Assembly (NCBI GenBank): GCA_030645915.1
Contig: JAUSNO010000011.1
Span: 1-64,000, forward strand
Direction: 5' to 3'
Length of the DNA: 64,000 nt
Source of the DNA: Undibacterium sp.
GTDB lineage: Bacteria; Pseudomonadota; Gammaproteobacteria; Burkholderiales; Burkholderiaceae_D
The translations under genes and the position numbers were made by a program. Positions 55,940 to 64,000 of this stretch are shown one piece after another (within the stretch, counting starts at the first letter, position 1; every line of letters begins with the position of its first letter). The notes beneath the pieces are model-generated. The model was not told where the DNA came from. It saw nothing but the letters and a program-made list of their open reading frames with translations, and did not search any database.

Positions 55940-57082
55940 TTATTTGGCTAGGTTGAGTACGCTAAATTTGGCAGCGGCCATCGGGTCGAGCGCGACTTGC
56001 TCACCGGCAGCAACGCCGCTCAGGATTTCCTGTTCCGCACCACTGACCGCGCCTGCCTTCACCTGGCGCAACAGGGGCTTGCCCTGTGCATTCAAGACAT
56101 ACACGGCGGTCAGCTCGGCACGGCGAAAAACGGCTTTGGCGGGCACATACAAACGCGCACTGTCGGATACGCCAGCAATGCCGCTGATGGCGAAATTGAC
56201 CCTGGCGAACATGCCCGGTGTCAGGCCCTTGGCGTTCGCCGGCAAATCAAGGCGCACCTGTACCGTATGGGTAGCGGCATCGGCGACCGGCAAGACGGTT
56301 AGCTTGCTGGCGACAATCCAGCGTTGCGCTTCGGGCAAACCGGGGAATTCTATCTTGACTGACTGGCCGGCCACCATTCCGGCTACCCGGTCTTGCGGCA
56401 CCGTTGCCGTCACGCGCAAGGCTGACGGGTCATACACCGTCATCAAGGCACGACCGGGCATTGCCATGTCGCCCAAGGTGACGGGCACATCTGCCACCAC
56501 GCCCGCATACGGCGCGTTCAGGACATAAAAACCGGATTGTGTCTGCACTGCGCCGGCCTGGGCGATCTGCGCATTGGCCTGGGCGCTGGCGGATTTGAAT
56601 TGCGATTCGGCACGCTCAAGTTGCGCTGCACTGATGTAAGCCTTGCTAAACAATTGTTTCTGGCGCTCGTAGTCTTTCGCCGCAACGGCCAGAGCAGCGC
56701 GCGCCGCATCGACTTGCGCACGGCTGGCATTGGCTTCCTGATTGGCTGCGCGTGCATCCATGCGAACCAGCAAGGCGCCGACCTTAACGCTATCGCCCAC
56801 CTTGACCGGCAATTCAACGATCGCACCTGACACTTGTGTGGCAATCACGGTCTGGCGCAATGCCTCAACCACGCCGTCAGCGCTATACAAGTGTGCGCCG
56901 CTGCTGGATCGCACACTCGCCACGGCCAGCGGCTTGCCCGACTGCAACACAGCTGTTTCTGCTGTTTCTGCATTTGCTGCCATCGCACCAGGGACAGCAC
57001 TCGCTAGCAAGGCAGTCAACAAGAAAAGTACCGGAGCGATAGTGGCGATTGTGCCGTTATGGCGAGGGGAGCGTTGCGGCAT
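55940..57082 (-). CDS. RND membrane-fusion adaptor
   Basis: A 380-residue periplasmic adaptor. The signal or anchor is APVLFLLTALLASAVPGAMA. The barrel-sandwich half is IVELPVKVGDSVKVGALLVR, the hairpin spans about residues 115-185, and VLNAPYAGVVADVPVTLGDM completes the lipoyl fold. The frame extends 47 codons upstream, but CTGGAG before the ATG at 57082 and the signal position support this start. It ends 11 bases before the pump gene. No outer-membrane factor gene is in the operon. Confidence 0.9.
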   Translation of the reverse strand: MPQRSPRHNGTIATIAPVLFLLTALLASAVPGAMAANAETAETAVLQSGKPLAVASVRSSSGAHLYSADGVVEALRQTVIATQVSGAIVELPVKVGDSVKVGALLVRMDARAANQEANASRAQVDAARAALAVAAKDYERQKQLFSKAYISAAQLERAESQFKSASAQANAQIAQAGAVQTQSGFYVLNAPYAGVVADVPVTLGDMAMPGRALMTVYDPSALRVTATVPQDRVAGMVAGQSVKIEFPGLPEAQRWIVASKLTVLPVADAATHTVQVRLDLPANAKGLTPGMFARVNFAISGIAGVSDSARLYVPAKAVFRRAELTAVYVLNAQGKPLLRQVKAGAVSGAEQEILSGVAAGEQVALDPMAAAKFSVLNLAK

Positions 57083-57128
57083 GATCAAGTTCTCCAGAAA
57101 AATAAGGCATTGCATTGAAGTTGGATTC

Positions 57129-57160
57129 ATCATATACTTATTTGCGCACACATGCAAATA
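57129..57160 (-). promoter_or_regulatory. Sigma70 promoter and operator-like palindrome of the RND/sulfur operon
   Basis: On the minus strand TTGCAT (57152-57157) and TATGAT (57129-57134) are 17 bases apart. The perfect inverted repeat TATTTGC-N8-GCAAATA at 57139-57160 covers the -35 box and most of the spacer, an ideal place for repression. A second short repeat, TTAGC-N6-GCTAA, lies at 57166-57181. The ArsR-family gene starts at 57210 in the opposite direction, so its product is the natural candidate for binding. The site is read from sequence; binding is inferred. Confidence 0.7.
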
Positions 57161-57209
57161 GTAAATTAGCTGAATGGCTAAATAAGCAAATCTAACCAAA
57201 CGAGGTATC

Positions 57210-57593
57210 ATGATGACTTTCACTCAGGAGCAATGCCCCCTCATGGAAGGATTATCTGATCAAGCCCTGGTTCAGGTAGCGCAATATTTTTCTGCGCTGG
57301 CCGAACCAACCCGTTTGCGTATTCTGAATTGTCTACGAGATCGAGAGCAAAATGTAGGGGAATTGGCCGAACATTGCGAATGCTCACAGGCGAACGTCTC
57401 GCGGCACTTGTCAACGCTGGCAAAACATGGGCTGGTGGCAAGAGAAGGCCGCGGCACTTCGGTGTATTACCGCATCGCCGATCCCTCGATTTACGCCTTA
57501 TGCGATTTGGTCTGCGGCAATGTCGCGCGCCAACTGGAGACGCAAGCTGCGGCGCTGGGCGGAATGAAGGGTAACAGCAAGAGCACGGATTAA
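57210..57593 (+). CDS. ArsR-family regulator, divergent from the RND/sulfur operon
   Basis: A 127-residue winged-helix repressor. The recognition region is CECSQANVSRHLSTLAKHGL and the wing is REGRGTSVYYRIAD. Cysteines lie at 9, 41, 56, 58, 98 and 102; C41 (ILNCLRD) and one in LCDLVC (98 or 102) stand where sulfide- or persulfide-sensing members such as BigR and SqrR keep their pair, although metal binding by ECECS-type cysteines is also possible. Two ATG codons in tandem (57210, 57213) can start it. With SQR, rhodanese and TrxC downstream of its target promoter, a reactive-sulfur sensor is the best reading. Confidence 0.85.
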   Translation: MMTFTQEQCPLMEGLSDQALVQVAQYFSALAEPTRLRILNCLRDREQNVGELAEHCECSQANVSRHLSTLAKHGLVAREGRGTSVYYRIADPSIYALCDLVCGNVARQLETQAAALGGMKGNSKSTD

Positions 57594-57709: not shown

Positions 57710-58390
57710 TTACAGCTCCGCCCATTGCCGCAGCAGATTATGATAGTGCGAGGTCAGGCCGACCACTTCTTGCGCATCGCCGATACGCGCCCTGAGCTTT
57801 TGAATGTTCTGATCCAGCTCAAACAATAGCGTGCGCTGCCAGTCGTCCCGCACCATGCTTTGGGTCCAGAAGAATGCGCAGACCCGGGTGCCGCGCGTGA
57901 CCGGCTCAACCTTATGCAGGCTGGTTGACGGGTATAAGATCAGGTCGCCTGCCGGTAATTTGACCTCATGCGTGCCATAGGTATCGACCACGACCAGTTC
58001 ACCGCCCTCATATTCTTCGGGGTCACAGAGAAATAGCGTAGACGATACGTCGGTGCGCAGGCTGAGCGTGCTGCCTGGCATCTGGCGCACCGAGCCATCG
58101 ACATGCAAGCCGTAATGTTCACCGCCGGCGTAGCTGTTAAACAGCGGAGGAATCGTGCGCAAGGGCAAGGCTGCAGAAAAAAACTGCGGGCTCCTGGCCA
58201 GTGCAGCGAGCACGATTTTTCCCAATTCCAATCCGACTGGCGAGTGCTCCGGCAACTGGCGATTCTGCTTTACTTGCGCGCCTTGCGGGCCAACTGTGGC
58301 GCGGCCATCAGTCCAGTCGGCCTGATCGAGGCGCTGCCGTATCGAGATGACTTGTTCACGGCTTAATACTTCAGGTATATGCAATAACAT
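57710..58390 (-). CDS. piuC: Fe(II)/2-oxoglutarate dioxygenase, PiuC/YbiX type
   Basis: A 226-residue PKHD-type hydroxylase. The iron ligands are H96 and D98 (YGLHVDGSV) and H159 ([11 protein letters not shown]), and the 2-oxoglutarate arginine lies in VTRGTRV just after. The N-terminal segment [20 protein letters not shown] is typical. PiuC genes occur next to siderophore receptor genes of the PiuA/Fiu type, as here. The substrate is not known. A strong palindrome separates it from the receptor gene, so its expression may be partly uncoupled. Confidence 0.92.
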
Positions 58391-58451: not shown

Positions 58452-60773
58452 TCAGAACTTGATATTCGCGGTCAGGCTTGCCGACCGTGGCGTACCTGGC
58501 GTGTAGCGATAGCCGCTCTTGTTGATGGCGGCGACGTACACTGTGTCGGCCAGGTTATACAGATTCAATTGCAAATCGATATTTTTGCTCAGAGGATAAG
58601 ACGCCATGGCATCGACTACCCAGTAGGCATCGGTCTTTGCCGGCGTGCCGATCGCACCATCGGTACCGCGTAACAAGGCATCGACAAAACGCGCACCGCC
58701 ACCCAGTTTCAAGCCAAACGGCAACTGGTATGAAGTCCACAAAGTAAATGCCTGTTTTGGCGCATACGCCAGATTATTGATGCCGCTGGCAGTCACCTTT
58801 GGTCCGCTTTCTACCTTGGTGTTCATCCTGCTGTAACCGGCACTGACCAGCCAGTTGCGGCTAATCGCACCGGTGACGCCCAGCTCCAGGCCCTGCACGC
58901 TCTTTTCACCGGTTTGGTAGTACAGCAGATCGGCCAGATTCTGCACCACTTCGTTGGAAATATTGGTGTCATAGATAGCGGCGGTAAAGGACAATTTCTC
59001 TTTCAGTAAATCCCATTTGGTGCCGATCTCGATGTTGGTCGTTTCTTGCGGATCAAACTTGGGATTGGCTGCGCTGCTGGCGGACGCACTCAGGGCAAAA
59101 TTCGATCCGCCTGGCGGCTGCTTGGAAGTAGAGTAAGACGCATATACGCTGCTCTCTGCAGTGGGTTTATACAAGCCGCCTATTTTCCAGTTGAGCAGAT
59201 TACCGTCCACGTTCAGATTGGTCGGCACCAATGTACCTACCGGCAAAGTCGGATTAGCTGCCGCCGTAGACAGGCTCGCCGCAGAATAGTCGGTCGCATA
59301 ATGATCAACCCGCACGCCGGCATTGAGCTGCCACTGCGGCGTTAATTTGATGGTGTCAAATACGTAGGCACTGACGGTGCTGGTGGCGCCACGGGTAAAC
59401 ACGCCGTTGCGTACCAGGTTCAGGCCTGTGACAGGGTCATTGGGATTGGGATGATATAAGTTCGCCGCCGCCAGCGTCCCGGTGCCACTGTTGCCCCAAG
59501 TATTTTGTTTCTCGCTGGTCAGCTCTAGCCCACCCAATAGCGTGTTTTTGACGCCGCCCAGATCCAGCTCTGCGGTCACATTGGTCTGATTGGTGAGGAT
59601 TTCATTTTCCTGATCTTTCAGGGTACGGGTACTGCGCGCCAAGGTCCATGTGGAAAGATCCGTTGCGGACGGCGTCAGCAGGTTGGCAGCCGAACCCATG
59701 AACGCGGTCAGCAGGTAATGCTGCGCTGTTTTCCCATAGCGTGTGGTATTGACCAGTTTTACTGCGGCGCTGACATCGTGTTCGACGCGGGCGGTCAACA
59801 TGTCGGCGGTAACCTGATCAAAGTCACTGGCGGAACCGTAGAAATTATGCGGATCGACCATCGGCGCCGTCGTGATGTAAGGCCGCTTGATATCGGAACT
59901 GCTATAGCCAGGCAAGCCCAGCGTGGGCACGCCACCGTCCGGCACATTGTCTTGCTGCACATGCAGATAGTTCAGATAAAGGCGCGTCGGTGTTTTCAGG
60001 CCAAAGGCAAACGAAGGCGCGACTGCCCAGCGCTTGTTTTTTACCTCATCGCGCCCCACGCTGCCGCTATCCTGCGCCAGCACATTCAGGCGAAAAGCGG
60101 AACCATGCTCGGCACTGATGGCGCGATTGACGTCGGCAGTGACGCGTTTCTGGCTACCGCTGCCCACAGTCAATGATCCATAAGTCGCGTCATCCATATT
60201 CGCTTGCTTGCTGCTCAGATTGACCGATCCCGTCGGTGAACTGCGGCCACTGTCGGTACCCGCAGAACCTTTAAGGACATCGATTTGCTCGATATTAAAC
60301 AGATCGCGCGAGATCGAACCCAGATCGCGTGCACCATCGACATAGATGCTGCTGGAGGTATCAAAGCCGCGCATGTAAATCGCATCCCCGGTATTGGTAC
60401 TGCCGTTTTCACCGAGGAAGAAAGCGCCGACACCCGGCGCGTTTCTGAGTGCCTCGGTCAGCGTGACTGCGCCTTGCTGATCAATCAGCTCGCGCTTGAT
60501 GACGGTAATGGTTTGCGGCGTATCGACCAGCGGCTGGGTGTATTTTGCCGACGCCGCCTTATCGGCCTTGAATTCATTCTCTTTTGAGCCGGTCACTTTT
60601 ACTTCCTGCAAGGTGTGCTGGCCGGCCTTGGTCACGTTGGCTGACGTATCGGTTTCTGCCGGGGTCGCACTGGCGGCTTGGGCGGCGAGCGGCAATAGCA
60701 TGGCGGATAGCACCGTGCTCACGTGCTGGTTAAAACGGGTTTGTGCGTGCTTACGACTGGTAATGATAGCCAT
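58452..60773 (-). CDS. TonB-dependent siderophore receptor (Fiu/PiuA-like)
   Basis: A 773-residue outer-membrane receptor. A signal peptide ([16 protein letters not shown]) leads to a TonB box region, the plug ([20 protein letters not shown], then [20 protein letters not shown]) and the barrel, closing with the aromatic C-terminus [17 protein letters not shown]. It resembles Fiu/CirA/PiuA receptors for catecholate siderophores and monomeric catechols. A Fur box lies upstream at 60931. It pairs with piuC downstream. Confidence 0.92.
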
Positions 60774-60930: not shown

Positions 60931-60949
60931 AATGAGAATAATTCTTATT
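60931..60949. promoter_or_regulatory. Fur box upstream of the TonB receptor
   Basis: AATGAGAATAATTCTTATT fits the 19-base iron box; the inner 7-1-7 core TGAGAAT-A-ATTCTTA matches the palindrome well. It lies about 160 bp upstream of the receptor start, oriented toward the minus strand gene, and implies repression by Fur under iron-replete conditions. Confidence 0.75.
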
Positions 60950-61107
60950 AAGATCAATATTAGCTTACGTCCTCTTGCCGCTCACTCTTGGCAGGCAAAG
61001 ATCCGGCTGCAAAATTTCTACTTTATTCGGTTTATCTGCCCTGAACTACCCTGAAGCTTTGCTACAAAAAAATACAATTCTCTGTTTTTACAAAAACATT
61101 CGTCATG

Positions 61108-61128
61108 TATAATTGAGAATCATTATCA
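61108..61128 (+). promoter_or_regulatory. Fur box and -10 element upstream of the PepSY gene
   Basis: TATAAT at 61108-61113 is followed directly by TGAGAATCATTATCA at 61114-61128, a near-perfect 7-1-7 Fur site. Fur bound here would cover the start of transcription. A weak -35 (TTTTTA) sits 17 bases upstream. The ATG of the PepSY gene follows at 61165. The 60774-61164 gap thus carries separate iron boxes for the two divergent units. Confidence 0.85.
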
Positions 61129-61164
61129 TTTACAACGACAACCATCGGGCTCCATTTTCATTTT

Positions 61165-61803
61165 ATGACCTCCAGTACCCCCCTTCAGCCTAACGTCCAA
61201 CAACGCCGCGCTTTCTGGCTGCGCCACCTGCATCAGTGGCACTGGATCAGCGCCGCCGTGAGCCTGATGGCCATGCTGTTATTCGCGGCAACGGGCATTA
61301 CCCTTAATCATTCTGCCGATATTGAAGCCCACCCCGTCGTCAGCAAAAAATCGGCGCAAATCCCCGCCTCCCTGTTAGCCACGCTGACAAAAAAACCCGC
61401 CGCCGAGCTAGCCCTGCCGCTGGCCCTGCGCGACTGGCTGGCACAGAATACCGCCATCAGCGTTGGCCAGCAAAGCGCCGAATGGTCGCCCAAAGAAGTG
61501 TATGTCGCCCTGCCCCGACCGGGTGGCGATGCATGGCTGCGCATAGAACTCGACAGCGGCATGCTGGAATACGAAAAAACCGAGCGTGGCTGGATCGCGT
61601 ATTTCAATGACTTGCACAAGGGTCGCAACACTGGCGGCGCGTGGGCTTGGTTCCTCGATTTCTTCGCCGTCGCTTGTCTGATATTTTGCCTGACCGGCTT
61701 GTTTCTGCTGCAGATGCATGCCGGCAATCGTCCGGCGACCTGGCCGGTTGTCGCCCTGGGCCTGGTGCTGCCCTTGCTGCTGGCGATTGTTTTCATTCAT
61801 TAG
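61165..61803 (+). CDS. PepSY-associated transmembrane protein
   Basis: A 212-residue membrane protein. The first helix is VSLMAMLLFAATGITLNHSA, followed by a periplasmic PepSY-like part (EVYVALPRPGGDAWLRIELD, then NDLHKGRNTGGAWAWFLDFF), and two more helices (FFAVACLIFCLTGLFLLQMH and LGLVLPLLLAIVFIH). Such proteins often act with iron-uptake systems as inner-membrane ferric reductases or heme-binding partners; NHSADIE, HKGRNTG and the paired histidines fit heme binding but are not proof. It leads the Fur-controlled operon. Confidence 0.85.
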   Translation: MTSSTPLQPNVQQRRAFWLRHLHQWHWISAAVSLMAMLLFAATGITLNHSADIEAHPVVSKKSAQIPASLLATLTKKPAAELALPLALRDWLAQNTAISVGQQSAEWSPKEVYVALPRPGGDAWLRIELDSGMLEYEKTERGWIAYFNDLHKGRNTGGAWAWFLDFFAVACLIFCLTGLFLLQMHAGNRPATWPVVALGLVLPLLLAIVFIH

Positions 61804-61869
61804 CATTGGCACTTATTTTTCGCACGTATTTTCACCACTCGTTTTCACCACTCAACCAGGATTCTCTCT

Positions 61870-62382
61870 ATGCATAAGCTGTTACCTTTTGCCATTTCCA
61901 GTCTCTTGTCGGTGCCTGTCATGGCGGCCGACCTGAGCATCAAGCTTGAAGTGCCGCGCCTGAACGTGGCCGAATATCACCGCCCGTATGTAGCGGTCTG
62001 GATCGAGCGGCCCGACCAGACGCTGGCCGGCAATCTGGCGGTCTGGTACGACCTCAAGAAGCGCGACAACGAAGGTGCAAAATGGCTCAAGGACCTGCGC
62101 CAGTGGTGGCGCCGCAGTGGCCGCGATTTACAGATGCCGGTCGATGGCATCAGCGGGGCCACCCGTGTGGTGGGCGAGCACAGTCTGGTGTTTTCCGGCG
62201 ACAAGGGCGCGCTGGCCAAACTGCCTGCCGGCGAGTATCAGTTGGTGGTTGAAGCGGCACGTGAAGGCGGCGGCCGTGAAGTGCTGAAAGTCCCTTTCCA
62301 GTGGGCGGCCAAGACGGAACAAAATGCCAAAGCCCAGGGCAGTCACGAACTCGGCCTGGTATCGCTGCAGATCAAACCTTAA
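61870..62382 (+). CDS. DUF2271 domain-containing periplasmic protein
   Basis: A 170-residue secreted protein. A signal peptide (LLPFAISSLLSVPVMAA) is followed by the DUF2271 domain: RPYVAVWIERPDQTLAGNLA, then WLKDLRQWWRRSGRDL and DGISGATRVVGEHSL. The family has no assigned function but is repeatedly found beside PepSY, DUF4198 and ApbE genes. Its place in a Fur-controlled operon suggests a role in iron or flavin-linked electron transfer at the periplasm. Confidence 0.88.
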   Translation: MHKLLPFAISSLLSVPVMAADLSIKLEVPRLNVAEYHRPYVAVWIERPDQTLAGNLAVWYDLKKRDNEGAKWLKDLRQWWRRSGRDLQMPVDGISGATRVVGEHSLVFSGDKGALAKLPAGEYQLVVEAAREGGGREVLKVPFQWAAKTEQNAKAQGSHELGLVSLQIKP

Positions 62383-62431
62383 TTTACTCCCTTAATTTAT
62401 CCAACGTAATTCCCCCCTTTGCGAACCGGAC

Positions 62432-63253
62432 ATGACGATGACACTCCTTAAGACAATTAGCTTGCTGGCGGTAAGCGCCTCCCTCCTTCACCCTTTGGCG
62501 GCACAGGCGCATCGCGCCTTTTTAGTACCTTCATCGACTGTACTGGCAGGCAACTCGCCCTGGGTCAGCTTCGATGCTGCCGCTGCCACCGATGTATTTT
62601 ATTTTGATCATGTCGCTTTAAAATTAGACACGCTGCTGATCACCGCACCCGACGGCACCAGCGTCAAGGCAGAAAACGCCAGCACCGGCAAGTTTCGCAG
62701 CAGCTTTGATCTGCGGACGGCACAAACGGGAACCTATAAAATCAGCCTAATCAATGACGCCCTGATGGCCAGCTATAAAGACAATGGCGTCGCCAAGCGC
62801 TGGCGCGGTACCGCCGACACGCTGGCCAAAGACATCCCCGCCAGCGCGCAAGAGTTGCAAGTGACGCAGATACAAGGACGCGTGGAAACCTTTGTCACCA
62901 ACGGCAAACCTAGCAACAAGACCCTGGAAGTCACCGGCAAGGGACTGGAGATGGCGGCCATCAGCCACCCGAACGATCTGAGCGTTGGCGAAACCGCGAG
63001 CTTTCGGATGTTATTGGACGGCAAACCGGCGGCGGGCGTCAAGATTACGGTGATTGCCGGCGGCATACGCTACCGGCAAAGACTCGATGAGCAAATCCTG
63101 ACCGCCGATGCCGATGGCAAGTTCAGCATCCAATGGCAAGGCGCCGGCATGTACTGGCTGGAAGCGGCAGCCAAGGATGCCAGGACCAGCATCCCGGCTG
63201 CCACGGAAAGACGCGCCAGCTATGTGGCGACGCTGGAAGTCTTACCGCAATAA
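62432..63253 (+). CDS. DUF4198 domain-containing periplasmic protein
   Basis: A 273-residue secreted protein with signal peptide LLAVSASLLHPLAAQAH. The mature start HRAFLVPSSTVLAGNSPWVS is characteristic of DUF4198, with two beta-sandwich domains (the second near DLSVGETASFRMLLDGKPAA). DUF4198 proteins are related to NikM-type nickel/cobalt uptake subunits and to periplasmic metal-binding proteins; the N-terminal histidine after the cleavage site may bind metal. It follows DUF2271 by 50 bases. Confidence 0.88.
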   Translation: MTMTLLKTISLLAVSASLLHPLAAQAHRAFLVPSSTVLAGNSPWVSFDAAAATDVFYFDHVALKLDTLLITAPDGTSVKAENASTGKFRSSFDLRTAQTGTYKISLINDALMASYKDNGVAKRWRGTADTLAKDIPASAQELQVTQIQGRVETFVTNGKPSNKTLEVTGKGLEMAAISHPNDLSVGETASFRMLLDGKPAAGVKITVIAGGIRYRQRLDEQILTADADGKFSIQWQGAGMYWLEAAAKDARTSIPAATERRASYVATLEVLPQ

Positions 63254-63291
63254 AGTACAGATCTTCCGCAAAAAAAAAGATGAAATGACAA

Positions 63292-64000
63292 GTGAATAAA
63301 AACACCCCCCATCGCGTGCTCATCCCCGTCACCATGCTCGCCCCAAAGGCGTTGCCTGGTGATGCACAGCTGGCACAATTAAGCGGTGCGACCATGGGCA
63401 CGCGCTGGCACGTCAAGCTGATGCATCCATCGCATTTATCGCAAGACGAACTACAGGCCGGCATACAGCAAGCGCTTGATCTGGTCGTCACGCAGATGAG
63501 TCACTGGGAGGCCGATTCTGCGCTCAGCCGCTTCAACGCTGCGCCTGCAGGCAGCTGGCATACGCTGCCGGCAGAACTGTTCAAGGTTCTTGACTACGCG
63601 CTGTTCATCGCGCAACAAAGCGCCGGTGCGTTTGATCCCGGGATCGGCCGGCTGGTTAACCTGTGGGGCTTTGGGCCGGAGCAAAAGCAATTAGCCCAGC
63701 CAGCAGCGGAAACCATACGGCAGGCATTGCAGGCAGGCGGCTGGCAACAGCTGCAAGTGGACCGCTCGCAACAGCGGGCGTATCAGGCAGGCGGCGTACA
63801 TCTCGATTTTTCCGGCATCGCCAAAGGCTTTGGGGTGGATCAGGTGGCGCGCTATCTGGAGGCGCAAGGCATTCACTCTTATCTGGTCGAAGTCGGTGGA
63901 GAATTACGCGGCCTGGGTTGCAAGCCGGATGGCAGTCCCTGGTGGACCACGCTGGAGCACCCGGATACAGCATATACCGACCACACCATCGTCGCCTTGC
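63292..64000 (+). CDS. apbE: FAD:protein FMN transferase, 5' part (partial)
   Basis: From a GTG at 63292 the frame stays open to the window edge, encoding 236 residues of an ApbE/NqrM-type flavin transferase. Motifs are LSGATMGTRWHVKL, QMSHWEADSALSRFN, FDPGIGRLVNLWGFGPE and HLDFSGIAKGFGVDQVARYL, followed by YLVEVGGELRGLG. The enzyme attaches FMN to a threonine of target proteins in the periplasm. No lipobox or signal is visible with this start; an in-frame ATG at 63334 is an alternative. The natural target, perhaps a flavoprotein reductase encoded next, is beyond the edge. Confidence 0.9.
   Translation, partial: MNKNTPHRVLIPVTMLAPKALPGDAQLAQLSGATMGTRWHVKLMHPSHLSQDELQAGIQQALDLVVTQMSHWEADSALSRFNAAPAGSWHTLPAELFKVLDYALFIAQQSAGAFDPGIGRLVNLWGFGPEQKQLAQPAAETIRQALQAGGWQQLQVDRSQQRAYQAGGVHLDFSGIAKGFGVDQVARYLEAQGIHSYLVEVGGELRGLGCKPDGSPWWTTLEHPDTAYTDHTIVAL

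Follow-up and report, generated by a model that had tools for sequence, protein, structure and literature searches.

A PepSY-like flavinylation operon behind a predicted Fur box, beside a Fiu/PiuC-type receptor-dioxygenase pair in Undibacterium: a candidate ferric-reductase chain

A published survey counted 3220 PepSY-like flavinylation clusters, of which 2833 contain DUF2271 and 1500 contain DUF4198, and described Fur repression and nearby receptors (Meheust et al., 2021, eLife, PMC8238504; this paper and those cited below on Caulobacter, FoxB and Alteromonas are used in excerpts). The counterpart in Caulobacter crescentus, CC_3059-3063 (CCNA_03155-03159), encodes a transporter, DUF2271, DUF4198, ApbE, and a sulfite reductase flavoprotein, and was up-regulated 12- to 51-fold when iron was limiting or fur was mutated (PMC3751524). 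A PepSY-family protein is said to be encoded at the same locus, where insertions lowered fitness with ethylenediaminetetraacetic acid (EDTA) (PMC12004947). The ApbE of A. ursilacus flavinylates a DUF2271 of that species, and no flavinylation occurs once the threonine is changed (PMC8238504). Here we analyzed the first 64 kb (the window) of a 145.6-kb contig in the 4.17-Mb genome of Undibacterium sp. (JAUSNO010000011.1, assembly GCA_030645915.1), which carries the operon PepSY-DUF2271-DUF4198-ApbE-CysJ-like flavoprotein, the last gene lying past the window end. A Fiu-type receptor gene and a PiuC-type dioxygenase gene, mutually adjacent and on the same strand, are divergent to it. Judged by sequence, the operon is of the published PepSY-like flavinylation kind, a system already known.

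The window operon shares with this system a three-helix PepSY-like protein, a DUF2271 with the S-G-A-T motif, a secreted DUF4198, ApbE, the link to iron, and predicted Fur control. It differs in that the NAD-binding donor is a separate gene, unfused to PepSY, and in that its ApbE has no clear export signal, a point undiscussed in the excerpts of PMC8238504. The five-gene order and Fur regulation, the latter predicted in the window, are also shared with Caulobacter, where the CciT-CciO pair is encoded at a separate locus (CCNA_00027-00028), whereas the corresponding Fiu-PiuC pair of the window is divergent and adjacent.

We propose, with a probability of roughly 0.8, that the operon is repressed by Fur and encodes an inner-membrane chain of the PepSY-like flavinylation kind, which would free siderophore iron by ferric reduction. 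Electrons would pass from reduced nicotinamide adenine dinucleotide phosphate (NADPH) to flavin adenine dinucleotide/flavin mononucleotide (FAD/FMN) in the CysJ-like protein on the cytosolic side, from these flavins to hemes held by PepSY histidines that are conserved at each end of the helices, and from the hemes to FMN on Thr98 of DUF2271. The FMN of DUF2271 would in turn reduce Fe(III) of catechol-type chelates imported by the Fiu-like receptor and perhaps held by DUF4198, and the resulting Fe(II) would be taken up by FeoB, whose gene lies outside the operon (C39:115681, the one FeoB_C match of the genome). ApbE would attach the FMN, and PiuC would work with the receptor in the cytosol.

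An earlier note, made from the letters of the window alone, had proposed a flavin-linked ferric reductase or metal-handling complex at the membrane and suggested seeking a flavinylated partner beyond 64 kb. The ferric-reductase idea is sound and agrees with the known five-gene kind; the suggested place of the partner does not hold, because DUF2271, a family experimentally shown to be an ApbE substrate, lies inside the operon and carries S-G-A-T. This motif in a neighbouring protein also answers the note's concern that the locus might lack a flavinylation target. A partner past 64 kb was rejected: the contig goes on with the CysJ-like flavodoxin/FNR protein, which is likely the cytosolic NADPH-side electron donor, and then with a TauE-type gene on the opposite strand.

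The gene order recurred in related loci. The PepSY protein retrieved 108 relatives, the best 80 of which defined our set of related loci; among the matches listed, the nearest belonged to Undibacterium and Herbaspirillum, with a top identity of 78%, which makes an Undibacterium-like member of the Oxalobacteraceae the probable host. All five genes lay on one strand in identical order in 76 of the 80 loci. Two of the four exceptions were short contigs (L099, L103), and the other two, from Azoarcus (L068, L090), lacked ApbE only. A phylum-wide sample was drawn via DUF2271, and 60 of its 78 rows were fetched. PepSY was present in 44 of these 60 loci, of which 29 had ApbE, 20 had all five genes, and 18 had all five in operon order; the order was unconfirmed in the remaining two (L191, L198).

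Fur boxes were scored against the 7-1-7 pattern TGATAATNATTATCA, which we take to be the consensus. The box preceding PepSY scored 13 of 14 and was the sole site of the 64 kb to do so; no such score arose when the window was dinucleotide-shuffled 20 times or the 391-base intergenic region was shuffled 2000 times. The whole genome contained four places that match with no more than one mismatch, this box included, compared with one for a reversed control pattern. Upstream of orthologous PepSY genes, a site scoring at least 10 was found in 75 of 80 regions and at least 12 in 53 (the window counted in, and L090 left out for its short flank). A score of 11 was reached by 2 of 240 mononucleotide shuffles and by 1 of 78 coding controls. 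A strong Fur box is conserved before the operon and is predicted to be occupied by Fur. The earlier note had described this near-perfect box abutting TATAAT and had postulated iron control of the operon; the former is confirmed, and the latter is supported by the conservation of the box and by the way in which the Caulobacter counterpart responds to iron and Fur. A promoter consensus scan with spacers of 16-18 did not list the TATAAT. The second box of the note, before the TonB receptor, is present but scored only 11, and taken alone is weak evidence for a Fur site, because 4.1% of shuffled intergenic regions contained a score of at least 11 and the window elsewhere holds four more 11s and one 12.

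S-G-A-T occupies residues 95-98 of DUF2271. Across 81 sequences (the 80 related loci and the window), Thr98 was kept in all, and [ST]GA[ST] was intact in 77, the exceptions being S-G-P-T, T-G-P-T, and, twice, T-S-A-T. By analogy with A. ursilacus, we propose that the DUF2271 of the operon is a flavinylation substrate of ApbE. Twin-arginine export of DUF2271 was considered and rejected: 13 of 136 DUF2271 proteins have RR in their first 14 residues, and the window protein is not one of them. Neither PepSY nor DUF2271 had a convincing relative in sequence searches against the PDB. In one relative (L005, L034; G080:C4), two DUF2271-DUF4198 units stand in tandem, with DUF2271 matches 2.2 kb apart.

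DUF4198 has relatives of solved structure. Its AlphaFold2 model (mean predicted local distance difference test score 89.7) matched Zcp (9mhm; Z 20.9, root-mean-square deviation [rmsd] 3.1, 214 residues aligned) and the nickel-bound IsDUF4198 (9gcb; Z 16.4, rmsd 4.2, 207 aligned, model residues 27-271 on chain residues 1-213). In the PDB entries 9mhi-9mho, Zcp carries the molecule name phosphoribosylglycinamide formyltransferase, probably a naming slip. The window protein shares the fold with both and the mature N-terminal histidine with 9gcb, and in the structural alignment its His27 falls on the metal-binding His1. Conservation was complete for His27 and Ala26 (81/81) and high for Ala24 (79/81), His60 (72/81), and His179 (73/81). 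The earlier note had placed DUF2271 and DUF4198 in the periplasm with unknown functions. The location stands, and roles can now be suggested: a flavinylation substrate and a metal-binding fold.

Because the solved relatives bind Ni (9gcb) and Zn, Cu, and Co (Zcp), we considered that the operon might serve another metal or metal stress, with DUF4198 binding Ni, Zn, Co, or Cu and the chain reducing, for example, Cu(II). An ArsR/SmtB-type regulator and an RND periplasmic adaptor encoded just past the dioxygenase would fit such a role. The details of the protein speak against it. The other ligand of the nickel protein is His18 (PMC12537917), and in this clade none of 36 DUF4198 sequences had a histidine at mature positions 3-29; within positions 2-33 of the same 36, there was one at 2, one at 30, and three at 33. 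In a nickel-type set, a histidine was present at positions 16-20 in 14 of 14 sequences, which is no independent control because the set was chosen by a motif containing that histidine; the motif was unmet in 2 of 18 loci (L138, L145). The window protein lacks a histidine at mature positions 16-20. If this DUF4198 binds a metal, the predicted site must be unlike that of the nickel protein, because the second ligand His18 is missing in the clade. Asp48, kept in 81 of 81 sequences in a region where the profile alignments are uncertain, is only a lead to a replacement ligand. Excerpts of the DUF4198 literature surveyed did not treat the metal site of this clade, and the missing second histidine was not found described there. 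With the conserved Fur box, the Fur- and iron-responsive Caulobacter counterpart (PMC3751524), and the adjoining Fiu/PiuC genes also pointing to iron, service to another metal appears improbable.

The PepSY protein also exceeded the cut-off of PF03929 (31.3 bits). Its AlphaFold2 model contained helices at residues 9-48, 157-186, and 192-211, and six histidines were nearly invariant: His23, His26, His49, His151, and His185 in 81 of 81 sequences, and His212 in 80. His23 and His26 are near the start of helix 1 and His49 is near its end, His151 precedes helix 2, His185 lies at its end, and His212 is the last residue. If the N terminus is inside, His23, His26, and His185 would lie at the cytosolic face and His49, His151, and His212 at the periplasmic face, an arrangement that would suit two stacked hemes as in FoxB (PMC11334425). 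This placement rests on the sequence and on the published FoxB comparison, since the structure search described below gave nothing usable. Longer PepSY proteins have been described as siderophore permeases, beside iron-responsive receptors in Alteromonas (PMC7190382), but the idea that PepSY and its partners here move or process the ferri-siderophore, with reduction secondary, has little chance of being right in view of the mere three helices, the conserved histidines at both membrane faces, the presence in the operon of genes for flavinylation and for an NADPH flavoprotein, and the report of VciB, of this kind, as an iron reductase (cited in PMC8238504).

Several points weigh against the proposed reductase chain. 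Expression, heme, flavin, and reductase activity in the host are predictions from sequence. In the structure search, no relative of known structure emerged for the PepSY model (Foldseek E 0.02 at best; the top Z, 7.4, was with unrelated chains); FoxB was not among the matches listed, which excludes nothing. The lack of a clear export signal in ApbE is at odds with flavinylation in the periplasm. The coupling of ApbE to the motif was loose: across the three sets, ApbE and intact [ST]GA[ST] occurred together in 113 loci, ApbE only in 17, the motif only in 11, and neither in 12. At least three ApbE-less loci (L005, L026, L103) are short stretches that possibly end before ApbE, and the association (Fisher p 8e-5) comes from related rows, some of them from cut stretches. 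In the two Azoarcus loci, PepSY-DUF2271-DUF4198-flavoprotein is without ApbE in the cluster, the motif reads T-S-A-T, and a receptor and PiuC follow; each genome has one ApbE elsewhere with, by eye, a lipoprotein-like signal. The loss of ApbE together with the motif, which looked clean in Azoarcus, was rejected as a natural experiment because in the wider sample ApbE-bearing loci show S-G-P-T, T-G-P-T, S-S-A-T, and others, and ApbE-less loci keep [ST]GA[ST].

We compared export signals across the operon. An in-frame stop at 63286-63288 limits the ApbE start of the window to at most one codon before the GTG, and prolines interrupt its short N terminus, N-K-N-T-P-H-R-V-L-I-P-V-T-M-L-A-P. A first test, for an uncharged 10-mer with a mean hydropathy of at least 2.0, was passed by 13 of 120 ApbEs (close orthologues 10/67, including that of the window at 2.03; family sample 0/20; phylum sample 3/31; others 0/2; 27 loci had no recognised core), compared with 74 of 137 DUF2271 and 146 of 150 DUF4198 proteins. 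A second test took the 14-residue maximum hydropathy in 136 ApbEs (77 close orthologues, 23 of the family sample, and 36 of the phylum sample, PepSY-less loci included), with a cut of 1.8 set by our own choice; two loci were left out, L207 for want of a core and L099 because of its score. Only two ApbEs reached 1.8 (L065, L198), as did 49 of 136 DUF2271 proteins, so that 1.8 is no clean divider. The medians for the close, family, and phylum sets were 0.97, 0.54, and 0.29 for ApbE, 1.71, 1.62, and 1.82 for DUF2271, and 2.14, 2.00, and 2.15 for DUF4198. The window ApbE, at 1.46, was near the top of its set and within the 5-95% range of DUF2271 (1.31-2.08), so that the two rough tests disagree on it: just over the cut in the first, short of it in the second. 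By these rough tests, the operon ApbEs appear mostly to lack a clear export signal though DUF2271 has one, and that of the window is borderline. No description of this gap was found in the excerpts of the literature surveyed.

One explanation is that the operon ApbE acts in the cytosol, possibly guided by the V-L-I-P-like N-terminal segment, and that FMN would be attached to Thr98 of DUF2271 ahead of export or in its course, so that the protein would cross by the Sec route already flavinylated. A loose V-L-I-P-like pattern was present in 76 of 77 close, 22 of 23 family, and 18 of 36 phylum ApbEs, counts that have no chance control and, in some proteins, may include a segment that precedes the true start. 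A 2025 review states that the majority of ApbEs seem to be secreted and that there are also cytosolic ones, its bacterial example acting on a soluble cytosolic target (excerpts of PMC12052999). Among the papers listed by literature searches, most of them judged by title, no title dealt with an exported protein that is flavinylated in the cytosol. We regard cytosolic action as doubtful. The window ApbE is borderline in hydropathy, and the ApbEs of L065 and L198 are lipoprotein-like (a lipobox pattern caught L198 only, L065 being judged by eye). ApbE-DUF2271 fusions (L228, L229, L231, L232), in which both domains exceed the Pfam cut-offs, also count against it, because they have export signals, seen by eye; they are unlike the five-gene operons. 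The wording 'signal peptide-truncated' for the A. ursilacus ApbE (PMC8238504) speaks against a universal lack of such a signal. Alternatively, the V-L-I-P segment may itself serve as an export or membrane signal of an unusual sort, or DUF2271 may be the target of a different ApbE. The genome has two more: L002 (C9), with no visible signal peptide, and L003 (C5), with R-R-R-L-A-F before a hydrophobic run (twin-arginine-like). Some 3.4 kb separate the C5 gene from the sole FMN_bind match of the genome, a 909-residue frame that is perhaps NosR-like.

The receptor and dioxygenase of the window resemble Fiu-YbiX, PiuA-PiuC, and CciT-CciO in that both exceed curated family cut-offs and are adjacent on the same strand; the receptor substrate is predicted from the family. 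A PiuC relative was found within 10 kb in 9 of the 80 related loci (L054, L064, L065, L068, L069, L070, L077, L078, L090), and within 6 kb in 14 of the 44 PepSY loci of the phylum sample, comprising 14 of 29 with ApbE and 0 of 15 without, in rows that are related. With one to two PiuC genes per genome, a rough estimate of the chance expectation is well below one. Thus, the Fiu/PiuC pair recurs beside such operons. The nearest relatives of the window (L035, for example) did not show its divergent receptor arrangement. PMC8238504 mentions receptors near PepSY-like clusters and, in its excerpts, no dioxygenase, and no statement on the adjacency of PiuC to the PepSY operon was found in the excerpts surveyed, those of PMC12004947 and PMC8238504 included. 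Just past the dioxygenase (55940-57593), the RND-type adaptor (minus strand) is divergent from the ArsR/SmtB-type metalloregulator (plus strand), likely a metal-efflux unit. Coordinates are collected in Table 1.

Table 1. Features of the operon and its divergent neighbours, in window coordinates
Feature	Position	Strand	Basis or remark
PiuC/YbiX/CciO-type Fe(II)-dependent dioxygenase	57710..58390	-	downstream of receptor; NF003975 351.8 bits (cut-off 180); PKHD_C and 2OG-FeII_Oxy_3
Fiu/PiuA/CciT-type catecholate siderophore TonB-dependent receptor	58452..60773	-	NF007349 Fiu 1059.8 bits (cut-off 686)
Weak Fur box preceding receptor	60933..60947		11/14
TATAAT directly against strong Fur box	61108..61113	+	sequence
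Strong Fur box TGAGAATCATTATCA	61114..61128		13/14
PepSY_TM_like_2 three-helix membrane protein, likely heme-bearing electron conduit	61165..61803	+	PF16357 280.4 bits
DUF2271, exported, proposed FMN carrier	61870..62382	+	PF10029 175.7 bits (over cut-off); hydrophobic N-terminal signal (by sequence reading)
S-G-A-T flavinylation motif of DUF2271, predicted acceptor Thr98	62152..62163	+	
DUF4198, exported, metal-binding fold	62432..63253	+	PF10670 172.7 bits
DUF4198 His27 codon, predicted first mature residue	62510..62512	+	after A-Q-A
ApbE FMN transferase, no clear export signal	63292..64317 (leaves window at 64000)	+	GTG start; PF02424 300.2 bits (over cut-off)
CysJ-like flavoprotein, 544 residues, outside window	64338-65972		Flavodoxin_1, FAD_binding_1, NAD_binding_1; N-terminal hydrophobic segments

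The unclear export of the operon ApbE turns the tacit assumption that exported proteins are flavinylated outside the cytosol into a question. If ApbE did act in the cytosol, no FAD export would be needed, and extracytosolic flavoproteins would follow a new order of events. The neighbourhood places a described iron-reduction system beside a receptor-dioxygenase pair that has been linked to cefiderocol and to the uptake of catechol siderophores (PMC12004947, in excerpts), which suggests that the operon and the Fiu-PiuC pair act on the same imported chelate.

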